IMG/VR virus record: IMGVR_UViG_3300018424_000130
Span: 1 to 30,832 of that record
Reading direction: 5' to 3' (one strand)
Origin: a virus
DNA: 30,832 nt
In this document: positions 2,288-10,059 of the stretch, piece after piece
Numbering within the stretch: the stretch's first letter is position 1
How the letters are laid out: every line of letters starts with the position of its first letter
Position numbers and translations under genes: made by a program
Notes under the pieces: generated by a model
Seen by the model: the letters and a program-made list of their open reading frames with translations, nothing else
Databases searched by the model: none
Told to the model about the DNA's origin: nothing

Positions 2288-3235
2288 TTAGGGGACCAAT
2301 GAAGTAGGAGGAGCCTTCATGGAGTGGCGAACTCTGGATGAGGATTGTAGCGTATTTGCAAATTGCTGTGAAGACATCTCGCCCACATCCTTACAACTGG
2401 CAGGCCACTTTGATGGACGCCGAAGGACAATGCCGGAATCCCGCAAATCCTCGACAAGATGCTTCTCGGCCGCTCTACCGGCTCGGTCGGCATCAAGCAT
2501 CAAGAGTAGCGAGGTAGGAGCGAGGCTCTCGATCAGTTCAACTTGACGGCGAGAGGCTCTCGCCCCGAGGATCGCCACGGCCGGGGTGCCGAACGACCAC
2601 GCCTTGAGGGCGTCGATCGAGCCTTCGACCACGACGAGTCGATCGAGCCGCTCAAGAGAGGCCGCTTGAGCGAATCCGTAAAGAACGTGCGAAATCTTTA
2701 CGCCCTTCGGGTACTTGTATTTCGCAAAGTCTGGAGGAGGATTGCGGAAGCGCCGAACAACTCCGATCGGCCGACCGTGATGATCGTGCAGCGGAATCAC
2801 GAGCGCATCATCTTCTACGGCATAACCGAGTTGAAAGTCAGCAAGCACTTTCGGATCGCTGATATCTCGATCCGCCCAATAGCGTGCGGCGTCTTGCTGC
2901 CACCACTCGATCCAGTCGATCGGAAAAAGCTTCTGATCCGATGCTGCTGCAAGCGATTCTTCAACGTCTCCGATACGCTTCCGAGCGGTTGCGGCGGCAA
3001 GGCCGGGATCGTCCCGACCCGGACCGCTGCCGCTGTAACCGTCAACACCAAGGTGAGCGGCGAGCTTGGCGAAGTTGCCACGCTCCTGACAGGCGTAGCA
3101 GATGAAGAGTCCCTTCTCGATGTTGATCGAAAACGACGCTCCCTTTTCGTCGTGGAACGGGCACAGGCACGCCCACTCGTTGCCGGAGCGGGATGAAACG
3201 CTCAGGTGCTTCTCAACGAAATCGGCATAACTCAC
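2288..3235 (-). CDS. dnaG: DNA primase (CHC2 zinc finger plus TOPRIM)
   Basis: A 315-residue primase that would make RNA primers for the phage fork. The CHC2 finger is intact: C25-x2-H28-x17-C46-x2-C49. The TOPRIM fold follows, with the glutamate motif VVVEGSIDAL (E204) and the DxD motif LDADRAG (D248, D250). It is much shorter than a cellular DnaG of about 600 residues and lacks the C-terminal helicase-binding domain, which is usual for phage primases. The GTG start at 3235 overlaps the helicase stop as GTGA, so helicase and primase form a two-gene operon. Confidence 0.9.
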   Translation of the reverse strand: MSYADFVEKHLSVSSRSGNEWACLCPFHDEKGASFSINIEKGLFICYACQERGNFAKLAAHLGVDGYSGSGPGRDDPGLAAATARKRIGDVEESLAAASDQKLFPIDWIEWWQQDAARYWADRDISDPKVLADFQLGYAVEDDALVIPLHDHHGRPIGVVRRFRNPPPDFAKYKYPKGVKISHVLYGFAQAASLERLDRLVVVEGSIDALKAWSFGTPAVAILGARASRRQVELIESLAPTSLLLMLDADRAGRAAEKHLVEDLRDSGIVLRRPSKWPASCKDVGEMSSQQFANTLQSSSRVRHSMKAPPTSLVP

Positions 3236-4497
3236 AGCTCAGCCAGCCTGTCTTCATCAATGAGTTCTTGAGCGGCGTCTCCGCTGATCTCGGTGAATTG
3301 GCCGGAGTTCGGCCGGAATTCGGTGAACCAAAATTGACCGTCAGCACCATGACGGTATTTGGCTAGATGAAATTTGATGACATGCCGAGATTGCTGGGCC
3401 ATCGTGATGACCGCATCAGCGTCCTGACCGATGCTGTCCGAACCAGCAAGATGCTGAGTCCCCGGATGCCCCGAGTCGTAGCTCGCCCGATTGATCTGGG
3501 CGGCTGCCACTATCGGCACTTCGTAGGCTTGAGCGATTCCTTTGAGTTCGCCCGACAGCTCACTAATCTTTTGCCAGTCGCTCGCTCCTGACATCAGCGT
3601 GAGGTAGTCCACGAACAAGATGTCTGGTCGGTTCCGTTCAAGCTGAGCGGCGATCGAAGCCGGGGATACCTTGCCTCGTGAAGTGTCGTCAACGATGAGT
3701 TTGCCGGGAAGATCAGCTTTGAGCTTCTTGAGAAACTTCTTGTAGGCGATGAGGTCAACGCCTTTGCCGGACATGAGTTCGGCCGTCGTGAACATTTCTT
3801 TCGCGTTCTCACTTTGCAAAAACGTGTGAACCCGCATGGCGATCTGACTTTTTGATTGCTCAAGCGCATCGTACTGAACAGTTGCTCCGGCCATCAGCGC
3901 TGATGCTGCCATACGGATCAAGGTCCACGTTTTTCCTTGTCCGAGTCGAGCAGCTACTACGAAGAAGTCTCCGGGTTGAGGACCATTCGTTGCGAGATCA
4001 AGAGTTGGAAAGCCGGTGGGTAAACCAGCCATCCCTCGTTCGTTCGCTTTCTCACTCCGCCGAGAAACCTCGTTGAACACCGATTCCCAATCTTCAACAA
4101 CATCTGATTCGTTGGATGTAGTTGAAGCTTCACCGTGGAGTTGAACGAGAGCTTTCTGTAAATCTTCAAGAACACGCTGAGGGTTCTTGCGTTCCTCAAT
4201 CGAATCAAGAGCCGAGTCCATCGTGCGGATCATCATCTTGTTCAGAAAAGCATCCCTGAGTTCTCCAGTCGTGAACTCAACATCATCAACTTTCAGAATC
4301 AGAAAGTTGAAGAACTTCGACTTGAAAAGTGTTTTCGACGGACAAGACCGATGCCGGTCGATGTACCTAGCTATCCATTCCCATTCACTTCGGAAGTGAA
4401 AGAACCACTCGGCTGTTACTCCATTGGTCAGTGGAGTGACATGGTCTTCTTGACGAAGAATTGAAGAAATGAAAAGTTGTTCTGTTCTTGCTCCCAC
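3232..4497 (-). CDS. dnaB: Replicative DNA helicase, DnaB-like
   Basis: This is the hexameric 5'-3' fork helicase partner of the primase. I place the start at the GTG at 4497 because AAGGAGGA lies just upstream (complement of 4503-4510) with about 6 bases spacing. The frame remains open to 4602 but has no such ribosome binding site. From this start the protein is 421 residues. Walker A ARLGQGKT is at about 183-190, Walker B ILFVDYL at 293-299, a sensor-like AAAQINR follows, and a KYRHG motif at 380-384 matches the arginine-finger region. The N-terminal about 160 residues would hold the helical collar domain. It overlaps the primase start by four bases. Confidence 0.9.
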   Translation of the reverse strand: MGARTEQLFISSILRQEDHVTPLTNGVTAEWFFHFRSEWEWIARYIDRHRSCPSKTLFKSKFFNFLILKVDDVEFTTGELRDAFLNKMMIRTMDSALDSIEERKNPQRVLEDLQKALVQLHGEASTTSNESDVVEDWESVFNEVSRRSEKANERGMAGLPTGFPTLDLATNGPQPGDFFVVAARLGQGKTWTLIRMAASALMAGATVQYDALEQSKSQIAMRVHTFLQSENAKEMFTTAELMSGKGVDLIAYKKFLKKLKADLPGKLIVDDTSRGKVSPASIAAQLERNRPDILFVDYLTLMSGASDWQKISELSGELKGIAQAYEVPIVAAAQINRASYDSGHPGTQHLAGSDSIGQDADAVITMAQQSRHVIKFHLAKYRHGADGQFWFTEFRPNSGQFTEISGDAAQELIDEDRLAEL

Positions 4498-4635
4498 AAG
4501 AATCCTCCTTCTTGTTCGGCCGCTTGCGGCCTTGAGGTCGTTTCGACGAACCGAAGGCTTTGGGGTGGCGGCTTGAACTGGGACGGTATCACATGCTGTC
4601 AAGCCAGCAAGTCACTCACCAATAACTTGAATGAG

Positions 4636-4670: not shown

Positions 4671-5612
4671 ATGAGTTACTACGCACCCGGCACCGTCCCC
4701 CACCGTCACTCTCTGAGCGATGCCCTCGACCCCGCTGACTACACCTTCATCGGTGAGTTCTACCACGGCATCTCACACGAGATCGCAAAAAGCTTCGCCG
4801 CAGAGCACGCTCATCTTGAGGTGTTTTTTGGCACCGGCGATTTCTTCGACCTTGTTCGCTTCGGTCGGCCTCGCAAGACCGATGGCGAAGCATTCCGTGG
4901 CTCCTGCGTCCTGTGCGGCGCAGCCTTCGCCTATGGCTCGGTCTTCCGCCATGTTCCGTCGGGCGAGTTCATCGCCGTCGGCCATATTTGCGCCGAAAAC
5001 TACTTGGCCTACGAGGACAAGAACAAGAAGAACCGTGAGAAGAAAATCCGCCACGCTCGCAAGCGTGAAGAGAACGCTCGCCGGAAGGCCGAGGCGACGG
5101 AGAAGTTTGACGCCTACGTTGCCGCTAACCCTGAGTTCGCTGCCGCCATCGTCGATGCTGCTGGTCACCACATTGTGATCGACATCGTGGGCAAGTGCCG
5201 TGCCTACCGGGGCGAGCCTTCGGAGGCGATGGCTGCGCTCGTCATCAAGATCGCCACTGAGAAAGCTGAGCGTGAGGCTGCTCGGGCTGCCGAGCCTTCG
5301 TTCGATCCGGTGCCGGTCCCCGAAATTCACGGCCGCACTCGCATTGAGGGTGAGGTCATCTTTGAGGGGATCAAGGATTCTGGTGGTCCCTTTGGCTCGA
5401 CTCACAAGATGGTTGTGCGGGTCACGCCGACCCCGACCACGGCGTTCAAGCTTTACGGGACTGTCCCTTCCGCCATCTCGGCCGTGAGCAAGGGCGACAA
5501 GGTTGCCTTCACCGCCCGCATCGAAGCGGGCGACCGTGACCCTGACTTCGGCTTCTTCAGCCGCCCGACGAAGGCCGAAATCGTTGAGCCTGCTGCCGAG
5601 TTGAGCGCCTGA
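4671..5612 (+). CDS. Conserved phage protein with CxxC zinc site, coiled coil and OB-like C-terminus
   Basis: A 313-residue protein of unknown function. Residues 80-105 contain CVLCG and GHICAENYL, a likely metal site. A strongly charged helix rich in K/R/E follows at about 115-145. The C-terminal third (GRTRIEGEVIFEG ... GDKVAFTARIE ... DPDFGFFSRPTKAEI) has the alternating pattern of a small OB-like beta barrel, a layout I recall from actinobacteriophage early proteins. A nucleic-acid role is plausible but unproven. It stands alone after the divergent promoter region, with no Shine-Dalgarno, in line with a leaderless start. Confidence 0.75.
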   Translation: MSYYAPGTVPHRHSLSDALDPADYTFIGEFYHGISHEIAKSFAAEHAHLEVFFGTGDFFDLVRFGRPRKTDGEAFRGSCVLCGAAFAYGSVFRHVPSGEFIAVGHICAENYLAYEDKNKKNREKKIRHARKREENARRKAEATEKFDAYVAANPEFAAAIVDAAGHHIVIDIVGKCRAYRGEPSEAMAALVIKIATEKAEREAARAAEPSFDPVPVPEIHGRTRIEGEVIFEGIKDSGGPFGSTHKMVVRVTPTPTTAFKLYGTVPSAISAVSKGDKVAFTARIEAGDRDPDFGFFSRPTKAEIVEPAAELSA

Positions 5613-5640
5613 AAGTTTTCAAAAAACTTTCTTGAATGAC

Positions 5641-5669
5641 TTGCAATGCCCACCAATACCTGCCATAAT
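5641..5669 (+). promoter_or_regulatory. Promoter of the noncoding RNA region
   Basis: TTGCAA (5641-5646), exactly 17 bases, then CATAAT (5664-5669): a near-consensus sigma70-type promoter. The box from 5632, CTTGAATGACTTGCAATG, matches the 4671-gene promoter at 17 of 18 bases. The predicted +1 at 5676 is the first base of a strong hairpin. Confidence 0.7.
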
Positions 5670-6120
5670 GGCATTGGAGCGGGGGGAGAAGCCCCCCGGG
5701 GCTTCCCCGCTCCCCCGGCTTTTCCGGGTGGGGATGCGACCCCCGCTAGGACGGCTCGGTGATCGCCCCGTGGGTGAGTCTGGAAGCGCCACGGGATACG
5801 GGACCGGCCCGGATCGGAGCGGAAAAGCGGCAAATGAGTTCCCAAGGCGTGAGCGGTTCATCAGCCGCAGTGATCGCCCTAAGCTCCAGTTCAGGCGTGG
5901 GCGAAAAAGCCCAGCGTCATCACAACAACGTCGTTGCCAAAGCTTCCCCCTCGGGGCGTGCTACGGCGGCCAGCGCTGCTCTGTGACCGGGCCGATTCCC
6001 TCGGCCGCTGTTCCCTTGGGAGAAAGGGAAGCCAACGCCCACAAGTCTTTGCGATTCGCTTTGCCGGTGCCCCGAAGGCTCGGCAGGGAAGCGAGCGAAT
6101 TGATCGAAGATTCACACCAC

Positions 6121-6227
6121 GGCTCTGCTAGCGCCCCTGATGAGGCGCTCAAGGAACAGGAGCACTGAGCGAAAGCTCGGTGAATGGGCGTAAAGCCCGC
6201 TCGGAGGTTCGATTCCTCCCAGAGCCA
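6121..6227 (+). ncRNA. tRNA-like element 1 (107 bases, atypical core)
   Basis: GGCTCTG (6121-6127) pairs perfectly with CAGAGCC (6220-6226) as a 7-bp acceptor stem. A textbook T-arm sits directly before it: GGAGG, loop TTCGATT, CCTCC (6203-6219). The D-arm position holds a 6-bp stem AGCGCC/GGCGCT. Between that and the T-arm I find GAGC-GAAA-GCTC and GGGC-GTAAA-GCCC hairpins but no normal anticodon arm with a 7-base loop. No CCA is encoded. It may be a tRNA with an insertion, a degenerate tRNA, or a tRNA mimic within a larger RNA. Confidence 0.5.
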
Positions 6228-6239
6228 CTAACAAATTTT

Positions 6240-6382
6240 TCTCCTACCGCCTTTGTGAAGATGGCAGACACACTTTATTGGAGCACCTAATTGCCGTTAG
6301 GTGCTCTAGAAGTGGTGGCGGAAACCCGGCTAATCGGCGGCAATCGATTGAAGGGAGTGAGGTTCGACCCCTCGTAGGAGAG
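6240..6382 (+). ncRNA. tRNA-like element 2 (about 142 bases, possible pseudoknot)
   Basis: TCTCCTA (6240-6246) pairs perfectly with TAGGAGA (6375-6381), preceded by a T-arm TGAGG-TTCGACC-CCTCG (6358-6374, one T-G pair). The stretch GTGAAGATGGCAGACAC (6254-6270) resembles a leucine-type D-arm. A 10-bp hairpin at 6281-6306 has loop TTGCCG, which is complementary to CGGCAA at 6338-6343, so a pseudoknot is possible. The core is about 60 bases longer than a tRNA and no anticodon can be assigned. Confidence 0.45.
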
Positions 6383-6570
6383 TCAATCAAATACTGCCGA
6401 GTCAGCGGGCTGGTCATCCGCACACGGCGTAGCTGGTAGAAGAGCCATTGAGCCTCCCAGCGTAGGCAGTCATCTCGCAACAAACAGGGGGAGAAAGAAT
6501 GACTGATTCACCCCGGACCTGAGCAAGTCGTAAAACTGCTCCCATTTCATCGCAGTCACAAAGGAGGAAA

Positions 6571-6801
6571 ATGACTGTTTCAGGTAACCCGTTCAACTCG
6601 TTCGTAACGCCGAGCTACCGAGCTACTTTCAACTGGAAGAACGTCGCTAAGTACGGATTTTTCCATGTCGATTCTCGGTTCGGCGGAGGCACGGCACGAG
6701 TTGTGGACGCCCGTTCGGGTCACACCCTCAAGACTTTTTGCTCTGACGGGACAGCGAAGGCCAAGGCTTTCGCTTGGAAGAAGTTCACGGCCAGCTCGTA
6801 A
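6571..6801 (+). CDS. Small conserved-looking protein of unknown function
   Basis: A 76-residue protein with an excellent ribosome binding site (AAAGGAGG just before ATG 6571). It is aromatic-rich and basic toward the end (FNWKNVAKYGFFHVD ... AKAKAFAWKKF), with a probable short beta-rich fold. No known domain is recognised. It is the first gene after the noncoding RNA region and ends 73 bases before the AAA+ gene, so it may be read through from the RNA promoter. Confidence 0.7.
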   Translation: MTVSGNPFNSFVTPSYRATFNWKNVAKYGFFHVDSRFGGGTARVVDARSGHTLKTFCSDGTAKAKAFAWKKFTASS

Positions 6802-6874
6802 TCGGCACTAATCTTTGCTAATCTCATGAATGGAGCAGTTCGCATCATTCATTCGTCAAGTTCAAGGAGGGACT

Positions 6875-8017
6875 ATGACTACTAAGAGGCCAAAAGCCAA
6901 GATGGGCAATCGCCCATCAGTTCCCGAGATTCGGGAACGTGTCCGCTCGCTATCGGCGGACGGATCGTCGTATACGGATGGGGTCATCGAGGCGCTTGAG
7001 TGGGCAGTGAATGGCGAGAGCTTTGATTCGCTTGACCGGCTCTTTCGTGGTGAAGCCACGGCCGTCGTCACTCCGACTGTCGAAGCTCCGGCTCCGGCTC
7101 CGGCTCCGGTTGCTCCGGCTCCGGTTGTTCCGGCTGCTCCGGTTGGCGATTCGCCGCTCGCTCACCTCATCCCCGTCGGCAAGTTCGGCAGCGGTTACAT
7201 CAACCGCAAGGTTGCTGGCTCGGTGCTCGACTTTGACGTTCTTGATGCCGCTCGTCGGACAAAGAAGAACGTCTTGATTGAAGGGCCGACCGGTTCGGCA
7301 AAGACATCTTTGGTCTTTGCTTACGCTGCTCGGGAAAACCTGCCGGTTGTGACCGTCGCATGTAATGGTGCTGTCGATCTCCGAGCATTGCTCGGCGGTT
7401 GGGTTCCGTCAACCGGTGGCGAGTTCACTTACGCTGCGGGCGACATCTTTGAGGTCGTCAAGCATGGCGGCATCCTGTACCTCGATGAGGTCAACTTCTT
7501 GCCACCCAAGATTGCGGCTGTTCTTTACGGCCTTCTCGACGGTCGCCGGTCGTTGTACCTGCCGGAGGCTGCTGGTTCCGATGTCCCGACGGTTGTCGAG
7601 GCTCACGAAGATTTCTTCGTGGTCGCTTCGCTCAACCCCGGTTACCTCGGTACTCGGCCCTTGAACCCTGCGTTTCGCAACCGGTTCACGGTGAAGCTCG
7701 ATTGGGGCTACAACGACGAGGTTGAGGCGAAGCTCATCAAGAGCCCTTCGCTTCGTGACCTCGCCCACCGCCTTCGTGAGCGGGTGACCGCTGGTGATCT
7801 CACGACTCCGGTTCCGACGAACGTTCTCATGGATTTTGAGGAGATCGTTGGCGAGCTTGGGTTTGAGTTCGCTGCGGAGAACTTCACCAACAACTTCGAT
7901 GTCACCGAGCGCCCGGTGGTTGTCGAGGTTCTGGCGATCTACCGTGATCGCATCGTCAGCGAACTCGCTGGCGATTCTGTTTCCATCGGCGGGGCCGACA
8001 GCGGCCCCGCCTTCTGA
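6875..8017 (+). CDS. MoxR/CobS-like AAA+ ATPase
   Basis: A 380-residue ATPase. The start at 6875 is chosen because AAGGAGG (6864-6870) precedes it; the frame is open further upstream. An Ala/Pro-rich linker at about 70-90 (APAPAPAP) separates a small N-terminal domain from the AAA+ core. The core has Walker A GPTGSAKT (137-144), Walker B ILYLDE (200-205), sensor-1 SLNPGY (252-257) and an arginine-finger region NPAFRNRF (264-271). Such ATPases act with VWA-domain partners as metal chelatases or protein-remodelling chaperones. The VWA gene follows 20 bases downstream, strongly implying a pair. The phage substrate is unknown. Confidence 0.88.
   Translation: MTTKRPKAKMGNRPSVPEIRERVRSLSADGSSYTDGVIEALEWAVNGESFDSLDRLFRGEATAVVTPTVEAPAPAPAPVAPAPVVPAAPVGDSPLAHLIPVGKFGSGYINRKVAGSVLDFDVLDAARRTKKNVLIEGPTGSAKTSLVFAYAARENLPVVTVACNGAVDLRALLGGWVPSTGGEFTYAAGDIFEVVKHGGILYLDEVNFLPPKIAAVLYGLLDGRRSLYLPEAAGSDVPTVVEAHEDFFVVASLNPGYLGTRPLNPAFRNRFTVKLDWGYNDEVEAKLIKSPSLRDLAHRLRERVTAGDLTTPVPTNVLMDFEEIVGELGFEFAAENFTNNFDVTERPVVVEVLAIYRDRIVSELAGDSVSIGGADSGPAF
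7988..8011 (+). other. Intercistronic 10-bp GC hairpin overlapping the end of the ATPase gene
   Basis: GGCGGGGCCG (7988-7997) pairs perfectly with CGGCCCCGCC (8002-8011) across an ACAG loop, just before the stop at 8015. No T-run follows, so it may stabilise the message end or tune expression of the VWA gene rather than terminate. Confidence 0.5.
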
Positions 8018-8037: not shown

Positions 8038-10059
8038 ATGAATGACAACGCTGTGTCTTTTGCAAATTTCGTTGCGAATCTTCGCCACTGGGCGACGACC
8101 AAGCTGAATAACGAGTTCGGAGAGATCACCGAAAGTGATGTCGAGCGAGTTGAAAGGTTTGTCGAGCGTGCTTCCGCGTGGGCAAGCGCCAGCGTCACTG
8201 TTGGCGAACGCGTGGCTTCGGTCCTCGGACGAGACGACATCGAAGTTCGCTTTGCCTACAGCAGCGGGATTGCGTTCACGGACGGCAAAGACATCTACCT
8301 TGGGGTCAACTGGTTCATCGAGAACATCGCCGCTCCGCTGCTCAGCAGCGAATACGGAAATGCAAACTCGGTAGCTCGTAGTTGGATTCTTCTGAAGGGC
8401 CTGATTTTTCACGAGGTGTCTCACATCATTTGGACTCCTCGCACAAGCCATCGCCCTCACAAGGATGTGCTCAAGAAGACCGAAGGGTCTTTCCGGCCGA
8501 AGCTTTTTCACGCCTTCAACTTGCTTGAAGACGCTCGTATCGAGAACCTGTTTACGGCTCGGTACGCTCCGGCGATTCCGGTGTTCGTGAACCTGATTCG
8601 AGAGGCACTTGTGTCTCCGAACCCGGCGAGTCCATCACTCGGGCTTCTCCTGCGTGGCAGGCATTACTTGCCTGCTGAGATTCGGAAGGCTGCTTGGGAA
8701 AACTTTGCGAGTGCAGCCACGAGTGTCGGCGAGTACACCGATGCCGAAGTTGATGCGCTTGGAAAGGACATCGACCGGTACACTCGGCTCGTTTTCCCGA
8801 CTGATGCTGACGCTGCTCTCGCCATCATTGAAGATGTTGAGCGTGCTCTGAAGGCTACTTACGCCACTCCGCCGGAGATTGATTCTCACGGCGATCTTGG
8901 CGAGGGTAGGCCAGAGCGTGTTGGCGATACCCGCAAGGACATCGAGCGTGTTAGCGAGAAGTTTGACGCTGACGCTGACGCTGACGCTGACGCCGATGCT
9001 GACGCCGATGCTGACGCCGATGCTGACGCCGATGCTGACGCCGATGCTGGTGCTGATGCCGATGCTGGTGCTGATGCCGATGCTGACGCTGACGCTGACG
9101 CTGGTGCTGGTGCTGGTGCTGACGCTGACGCCGATGCTGGTGGTGCTGACGCTGATGCTGGTGGTGACGACATTGGCAATGGAGTCAAAGAGCTTCTTGA
9201 CGACCTCGCCAACGAGCTTGATCTTGACAGCATCGTTGATCGGGAGTTCAAGGCAGTTGCTCGTGCTGCGGCAGTTGACGACGGGTTGGATACAACCGGC
9301 GACCGCAAGGTTGAACCGGCCAGCCACACCCCGATTCATGAGCTGCGGAGCCGCAACTGGGCAAGAGTCGTCCGCAAGAAGTTGGCTTCAGCCCTTGGCT
9401 CGGTGTTCTTCGACGCCGAAGACGGCTATGAGTCCGGCCACTCAACTGGCCGCCTCAACATTGCCGACTACATCGGCAGTCGTGGGCATCATCTCGATGT
9501 CTTCGACCGCTGGGTTGCGAATGCCGACGAGGCTACCTCGTTTGAGGTCGTTGTGCTGATCGACACTTCTGGCTCGATGGCTGGCAACCGTATGTGGAAT
9601 GCCGCAGCTTCAGCGTGGGCGATTGAGCGTGCGCTTGCTGACAACGACATTCCGTCTACCTTGATCTCGTTCGATACTCGGGCTGCGCTCATGAAGAGCA
9701 GCAGCGAGAGCTTCAGCGAGGCTTCGGTGCCTGAGTGGGCTGCTAATGGCGGCACCAACATCAAGAGTGCGGTTCGTTGGGCGAACGAAATCTTTGGTCG
9801 TAGCGACAAGACTCACAAGGTCTTGCTGACACTGACTGACGGTGCGTTCTACGTCGATGACGACGAGATGAAGAAGCTGAACAACGTTGCGGCTTCGATT
9901 CTCATCCGACTTGGCGAAGTCTACGAACACTACGATGGTGTCGATCACGGTCACACTGAGACGATCGTCTTCGGTACTGAAGCGGAGCTTCGGAAGATGC
10001 CGGACGTTCTTGGTGCCAAGATTCTGGAGACGACCCGAAACGTGGTGGCTTCCGCATGA
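8038..10059 (+). CDS. VWA-domain protein with HExxH site, CobT-like partner of the AAA+ ATPase
   Basis: A 673-residue protein with RBS AAAGGAGG. The N-terminal domain holds HEVSH (125-129) and NLLEDARIE (161-169), a zincin-like arrangement often seen in VWA proteins paired with MoxR ATPases. The middle, codons 8965-9165, is a 67-residue Asp-Ala(-Gly) repeat. The C-terminal VWA domain has a complete MIDAS: D509-x-S511-x-S513, T573 and D601 (LTDGA). By analogy with CobS/CobT and MoxR/VWA systems it would be an adaptor that recruits a substrate or metal to the ATPase ring. Whether HEVSH is catalytic is unknown. A strong terminator follows directly. Confidence 0.85.
   Translation: MNDNAVSFANFVANLRHWATTKLNNEFGEITESDVERVERFVERASAWASASVTVGERVASVLGRDDIEVRFAYSSGIAFTDGKDIYLGVNWFIENIAAPLLSSEYGNANSVARSWILLKGLIFHEVSHIIWTPRTSHRPHKDVLKKTEGSFRPKLFHAFNLLEDARIENLFTARYAPAIPVFVNLIREALVSPNPASPSLGLLLRGRHYLPAEIRKAAWENFASAATSVGEYTDAEVDALGKDIDRYTRLVFPTDADAALAIIEDVERALKATYATPPEIDSHGDLGEGRPERVGDTRKDIERVSEKFDADADADADADADADADADADADADADAGADADAGADADADADADAGAGAGADADADAGGADADAGGDDIGNGVKELLDDLANELDLDSIVDREFKAVARAAAVDDGLDTTGDRKVEPASHTPIHELRSRNWARVVRKKLASALGSVFFDAEDGYESGHSTGRLNIADYIGSRGHHLDVFDRWVANADEATSFEVVVLIDTSGSMAGNRMWNAAASAWAIERALADNDIPSTLISFDTRAALMKSSSESFSEASVPEWAANGGTNIKSAVRWANEIFGRSDKTHKVLLTLTDGAFYVDDDEMKKLNNVAASILIRLGEVYEHYDGVDHGHTETIVFGTEAELRKMPDVLGAKILETTRNVVASA
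8965..9165 (+). repeat. In-frame hexanucleotide repeat coding (Asp-Ala)n
   Basis: Tandem GAC/GAT-GCT/GCC units, shifting to GCTGGT units, encode an acidic low-complexity spacer of 67 residues between the metallopeptidase-like and VWA domains. The array is imperfect at synonymous positions and likely length-variable by slippage. Confidence 0.95.

Follow-up and report, generated by a model that had tools for sequence, protein, structure and literature searches.

The window analysed here is the whole stretch of DNA in a 30.8-kb virus record (IMGVR_UViG_3300018424_000130; 30,832 nt) from an actinobacteria-type phage. Judged by replication and packaging genes it lies close to the Gordonia phages GMA6, DalanDe and ChisanaKitsune and the Brevibacterium phage Cantare, with whose helicases the helicase of the window shares about 37–41% amino-acid identity. 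In the left part of the window the genes for a DnaB-like helicase on one side and a MoxR-like AAA ATPase and a VWA/CobT-like protein on the other enclose a long stretch without evident genes (Table 1). The product of the first gene downstream of this stretch had no match in a family search. Codon statistics trained on this phage's own genes gave 0.21–0.44 bits/codon for those genes and −0.29 to +0.02 for every open reading frame in 5453–6596, and the region from 5612 to 6570, which has no coding bias in any frame, is noncoding. This bears out an earlier note on this DNA, which had found no convincing gene here and had placed a putative RNA at 5676–6560; these coordinates are sound.

Table 1. 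Features of the noncoding locus and its neighbours in the window, followed by mini-tmRNAs on other phage contigs (contig label before the position)
Feature	Position	Strand	Remarks
DnaB-like helicase	3232–4602	-	divergent from RNA; marks the locus upstream
Gene, function unassigned	4671–5612	+	C-terminus related to ssDNA-binding proteins; 5' flank of noncoding stretch
Candidate sigma-70-like promoter	5641–5669	+	TTGCAA-17-CATAAT; 9/12 matches, TG in front
Nested 38-nt hairpin at predicted +1	5676–5713	+	−27.9 kcal/mol, z −2.1
RNA 5' part, untranslated, about 445 nt	5676–6120	+	no coding bias in any frame
TLS1	6121–6226	+	acceptor 6121–6127/6220–6226; T arm 6203–6219, loop TTCGATT
TLS2	6240–6381	+	acceptor 6240–6246/6375–6381; T arm 6358–6374, loop TTCGACC
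Untranslated stretch up to next gene	6382–6570	+	ends in ribosome-binding site AAAGGAGGAAA
First gene 3' of RNA, 76 aa	6571–6801	+	0.315 bits/codon
MoxR-like AAA ATPase	6830–8017	+	assigned by protein family searches; locus marker
VWA/CobT-like gene	8038–10059	+	forms, with the MoxR-like ATPase, the downstream operon marking the locus
Mini-tmRNA	L220:48–127	-	pattern scan
Mini-tmRNA	L222:2849–2929	-	pattern scan
Mini-tmRNA	L223:1744–1823	-	pattern scan
Mini-tmRNA	L224:2411–2490	+	pattern scan
Mini-tmRNA	L225:715–795	-	pattern scan
Mini-tmRNA	L226:971–1051	+	pattern scan
Mini-tmRNA	L228:1682–1762	-	pattern scan
Mini-tmRNA	L096:6797–6874	-	pattern scan

Taken alone the promoter is weak, as about one such site per three kilobases, or ~0.7 in the region, is expected by chance. 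It gains support from the syntenic RNAs, which have sites of the same architecture at their 5' ends: in all four relatives scanned (L096, L107, GMA6 (L005) and ChisanaKitsune (L004)) a promoter with 10–11 of 12 matches, and with a spacing that is always 17 nt, lies at the 5' end of the noncoding stretch (9–11 of 12 when the window is included). The hairpin that the earlier note placed at the predicted +1 was confirmed there; it starts 7 nt past the -10 hexamer, and 6 of 200 shuffled sequences folded as well. A perfect palindrome, TGCCATAATGGCA, can be read off the sequence at 5661–5673, where it overlaps the -10 hexamer, and TATGCCATAGGCGTA occupies the matching position in the Gordonia promoters. 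From their placement, the two may represent a shared operator.

Folding energy between 5700 and 6100 is no better than that of shuffled sequence (sliding z about 0), so that the many stems described there earlier do not exceed what chance gives, and no sequence relative of 5714–6120 was found among phage records or the fetched loci. Likewise, neither the region nor the left 20 kb as a whole had a match among phage records in DNA similarity searches. In the 3' stretch a D-arm-like fragment near 6420 is unpaired and has no T arm. As the + strand shows no terminator-like site between the promoter and 6571, the transcript, as read from the sequence, probably runs on to the gene that starts there.

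The most distinctive features of the region are two tRNA-like structures (TLSs). A strict search for a 7-bp acceptor stem, a 5-bp T arm and a TTCRANY loop on both strands of the window returned two elements only, in tandem and both on the + strand of the noncoding stretch, against 0.005 expected per shuffle. Both contain the 12-bp acceptor/T stack with its loop, and both fold far better than shuffled sequence (z −4.1 for TLS1 and −3.9 for TLS2; no shuffle was as good), which substantiates the tRNA-like elements noticed earlier. Neither forms a cloverleaf with a 7-nt anticodon loop, hairpins being found instead. TLS1 has a D-like arm, a GAAA-capped 7-bp stem replacing the anticodon arm and an extra hairpin, and TLS2 has a short D-like arm and a long hairpin replacing the anticodon arm. 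In place of CCA, their 3' ends are encoded as ACTA and GTCA. ARAGORN predicted no tRNA gene in the window (a run at relaxed thresholds gave many cloverleaves overlapping one another and was discarded), and the best Rfam match of TLS1 was tRNA-Sec with 30.5 bits (E 0.0012), under the gathering score of 47. An exact-pattern scan for TLS1 in other contigs found none.

The order DnaB helicase, RNA, AAA ATPase, VWA recurs in Gordonia phages and in IMG/VR contigs. Over a hundred IMG/VR loci (L numbers) were fetched by scans with ATPase and helicase alignments; a protein scan of viral contigs with the ATPase of the window alone gave no match, and one with the protein upstream of the RNA gave a single weak match. 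Many of these loci have noncoding stretches of 450–900 nt upstream of DnaB on the divergent strand. In 2.79 Mb of related loci the TLS search returned 50 matches and, after shuffling, none; some contigs are counted more than once among the 50, and a few of the matches are ordinary tRNAs. Most of the 50 lie beside DnaB on the divergent strand. Five loci (L103, L107, L108, L109 and L110) have a minimal TLS, GCCAGTG...CACTGGC, with inserts of 18–27 nt; L104–L106 have a variant of it and L113 has another TLS. In an alignment of TLSs (n=11) the 12 acceptor/T pairs were 99.2% paired, a measure biased by rows that were partly picked by a pairing search, and 10 of the 12 had changed on both sides. The covariation score was 0.908 against 0.224 when shuffled, and sliding the partners lowered pairing to about 50%.

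The stretches of L103 and L107 are 91% identical and those of L109 and L110 88%. In both pairs substitutions are spread evenly across codon phases, and indels of 1, 2, 4, 5, 7 and 19 nt, among others, break any frame; from this sequence comparison, these stretches evolve as noncoding. A conserved protein-coding frame had been named as grounds for refuting an RNA at this locus, and neither in these two pairs nor in the Gordonia phages do substitutions show codon periodicity or indels respect a frame. A motif TTGA[AC]AAC, expected at 0.07 per kb, follows the promoter or 5' hairpin in L095, L096, L104, L107, L108, L109/L110, L113 and GMA6; it is absent from the window and from the Chidieberevirus RNAs. 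We take it to resemble boxA of Gram-positive and actinobacterial rRNA leaders, an antitermination signal. The boxA of rRNA leaders recruits Nus factors and shields untranslated transcripts from Rho.

Two kinds of repeated hairpin were seen beside these RNAs. An intergenic hairpin with GCGCCACCA lies 3' of the TLS and is repeated between the downstream genes in L103, L107, L108, L109 and L110 (for example L110:2204–2241 and 1120–1154), and between DnaB and the RNA promoter L103, L104, L108, L109 and L101 have arrays of another repeated hairpin, for example AAACCCTTACTGGGTAAGGGTTT. The latter could be terminators, operators or origin iterons.

Evidence for an extensively structured RNA comes from the cultured relatives. 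The syntenic locus of ChisanaKitsune and related phages offers no convincing gene over about 800 nt; no RNA has been annotated there, and the annotations of two of the phages include one short hypothetical ORF. From an alignment of seven Gordonia phages we obtained a consensus structure with 229 pairs, in which one helix closes the RNA end to end; 99.9% of cells are paired, although this alignment served both to predict the structure and to score covariation. Thirteen pairs had changed on both sides and 35 cells were doubly changed against 15.0 in shuffled alignments; the number of pair types did not exceed that of shuffles. We regard this covariation as good rather than conclusive evidence for a structured RNA. 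The Gordonia RNAs differ by indels of 1–2 nt and lack codon periodicity, which excludes a conserved protein, and on the modelled structure these cultured phages have at the locus an ornate RNA that annotation has missed. The ornate RNA of the earlier note is thus upheld by comparison for the syntenic Gordonia locus and not for the 5' 450 nt of the window itself, where z is about 0; the check for covarying stems that the note had called for showed conserved pairing in the former and in the TLSs, and for 5714–6120 of the window the searches gave no relatives to align. A search of the Gordonia RNAs against Rfam gave no match and detected no TLS; in the absence of an Rfam-detectable TLS from these RNAs, the TLS does not appear to be essential to the locus. 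A joint alignment of the repeat modules of the Gordonia and GMA6 RNAs was too poor for use.

The earlier note had likened the RNA to the GOLLD/ROOL type. The covariance models of GOLLD, ROOL, OLE and HEARO (Rfam) had no match at E<=10 in the window between 5400 and 6900, and none at E<=1 in the relatives, so membership in these families is not borne out. GOLLD and ROOL are often found near tRNA islands and tRNAs are sometimes present within the GOLLD linker (PMC12286853); by ARAGORN no tRNA genes accompany the RNA in the window or at the Gordonia and Brevibacterium loci. The likeness is that of large phage-encoded noncoding RNAs with extensive secondary structure, whereas here the tRNA-like parts lack anticodons and lie at the 3' side, and the locus adjoins DnaB and the AAA/VWA operon. 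It is conceivable that the RNA is nevertheless a true GOLLD, ROOL or other described giant RNA too divergent for its model, as size, phage setting, the extensive structure of the Gordonia relatives and the tRNAs of the GOLLD linker (PMC12286853) would fit, but with no match at these thresholds we hold this to be very unlikely.

A second likeness is to tmRNA, which RNase P cuts at the 5' end and whose upper half is tRNA-like without an anticodon (PMC3985003). The TLSs of the window share the acceptor/T half without an anticodon; they differ in that tmRNA is not their best match (within the clan this is tRNA-Sec), in carrying no tag sequence, and in the C3-G70 pair of TLS1. A tmRNA domain with the TGGNNTCGAC D loop, a tag sequence or pseudoknots was not found in the window. 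In some relatives the resemblance is closer. The RNAs of L096 and L097 have a 3' tRNA-like domain that matches the tmRNA model with 64.7 bits and has no mRNA part. Freestanding tmRNA-like domains, also without an mRNA part, lie beside DnaB at L198:860–939(-) and L208:26–105(-), and another is found downstream of DnaB on the same strand at L089:4346–4428(+). The domains of L096, L089, L198 and L208 match the model at both ends with nothing between, and have a G3:U70 pair. Mitochondrial tmRNAs of jakobids lack the tag sequence and pseudoknots as well (PMC3985003). L096 also matches mascRNA/MEN beta (MALAT1, RF01684) weakly (26.1 bits, E 0.011); there too a long noncoding RNA has a tRNA-like 3' end, but that RNA is eukaryotic and we draw an analogy of architecture and claim no homology.

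One pattern scan of diverse phage contigs returned 'mini-tmRNAs' of ~78–81 nt (Table 1) with G3:U70, the TGGNNTCGAC D loop, a short P2 helix and a closing loop of similar sequence, which leaves no space for a tag sequence or pseudoknots. Within the present phage lineage, the tmRNA-like domains of the L200 group begin a few bases past a TATAAT box, as if transcribed alone.

A noncoding RNA with tRNA-like structures is well supported by these observations, and the part of the earlier note in which a noncoding RNA has tRNA-like elements and a promoter of its own stands on the coding statistics, the TLS search and the promoters of the relatives. Its transcription, its cleavage by RNase P and a role for the freed RNA are what we infer. 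The acceptor/T half of tRNA is the part recognised by RNase P, RNase Z, the CCA-adding enzyme and EF-Tu, and tRNAs punctuate mixed operons. The promoter would drive a long untranslated RNA from about 5676 into the operon starting at 6571. As TLS1 and TLS2 mimic the half of tRNA that RNase P and RNase Z recognise, they would be substrates for these enzymes, and host RNase P (and RNase Z) would most likely cut at 6120/6121 and around TLS2. These cuts would free the 5' RNA of roughly 445 nt from the ATPase mRNA and give it a defined 3' end. The freed RNA would be the functional product, likely a structured phage RNA that infected cells make in large amounts; an abundant structural RNA is our first guess because GOLLD and ROOL have been so proposed (PMC12286853). 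That an untranslated phage RNA heads the ATPase operon, is freed at the TLSs by host RNase P and acts itself is the explanation we favour and consider reasonably probable.

Its main rival, by analogy with cluster A mycobacteriophages, is an RNA of a replication origin, in which case the phage would have its origin here, next to DnaB and primase, and the RNA would prime or regulate replication. The RNA adjoins the divergent DnaB and primase, hairpin-repeat arrays lie upstream of it in L103, L104, L108 and L109, and cluster A phages require noncoding RNAs of about 400–500 nt, near replication or partition functions, for prophage replication (PMC7157519). Those RNAs adjoin parABS, however, which a non-exhaustive search did not identify nearby, and the part of the source consulted reports no tRNA-like portion (PMC7157519); a replication primer, moreover, needs no anticodon-less tRNA mimics. 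Across the window the cumulative GC skew is lowest at this locus, but it was judged uninformative as an origin signal since gene direction switches there, which alone can cause a change of skew. We consider an origin RNA unlikely. The absence of a terminator between the RNA and 6571, with genes directly 3' here as in the relatives, would also suit a long regulatory 5' leader of the AAA/VWA operon that has no RNA function of its own and whose TLSs act on the downstream mRNA by timing or stabilising its expression. A leader of about 900 nt would be very long, though, and the RNAs of relatives retain extensive pairing over about 800 nt, so this seems quite improbable to us. The D-arm and T-arm pieces, the unpaired fragment near 6420 and the lack of any predicted tRNA gene could finally be read as decay, the TLSs being remnants of a phage tRNA cluster in otherwise neutral intergenic DNA. 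Drift would be expected to erode both halves of a tRNA alike, but both acceptor stems and T loops are intact and the anticodon arms are replaced by stable hairpins; relatives maintain the acceptor/T pairing through double changes, and L103, L108 and L113 have intact acceptor/T stems and no anticodon. Decay therefore hardly comes into question.

As to the RNA of the window, its kind, a large structured phage RNA, is known and no described family fits it, so that it likely represents an undescribed class. Only locus and architecture support a single class for the RNA of the window, the Gordonia RNA and the TLS-bearing RNAs: the window had no match to profiles built from the group-A and Gordonia RNA alignments, and as no sequence relative was found the homology of its RNA with those of relatives rests on synteny and architecture. 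It is tempting to speculate, and we do so tentatively, at somewhat less than even confidence, that this is a class set by locus and architecture and not by sequence, with anticodon-less tRNA or tmRNA mimics cut by host RNase P at its end. Such a class would comprise fast-evolving structured RNAs beside the replication helicase, many with an antitermination signal like that of rRNA leaders, and the mimics may also engage AlaRS, EF-Tu or SmpB and so interfere with ribosome rescue.

To our knowledge no function has been assigned to giant phage RNAs of the GOLLD/ROOL kind. The present locus adds a group of large RNAs tied to a fixed genome position, and eleven sequenced Gordonia phage records link the group to phages amenable to laboratory culture, which makes transcription, structure and the phenotype of a deletion directly testable. 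The tRNA mimics suggest a concrete route by which phages might use a host enzyme to set where such RNAs end, and the tmRNA-like domains that lack a tag sequence would be an unexpected phage counterpart of the jakobid mitochondrial form.

A few loci depart from the common arrangement. About 420–620 nt upstream of the DnaB match (-) in L111 there is a shortened group-A RNA with a boxA-like start and a GCGCCGCCACCA end, the middle being mostly missing. A genome scan for DnaB gave two loci only, one of which, L235, is a phage contig binned with a Thiotrichales MAG; about 1000–1700 nt upstream of its DnaB lie about 650 nt without an evident gene but with repeated CGGAGAGTC motifs, in which no TLS was found. 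In two further loci a canonical-looking tRNA (L030:3851–3922 and L031:1828–1899) lies directly upstream of an apparently noncoding stretch near the ATPase gene.
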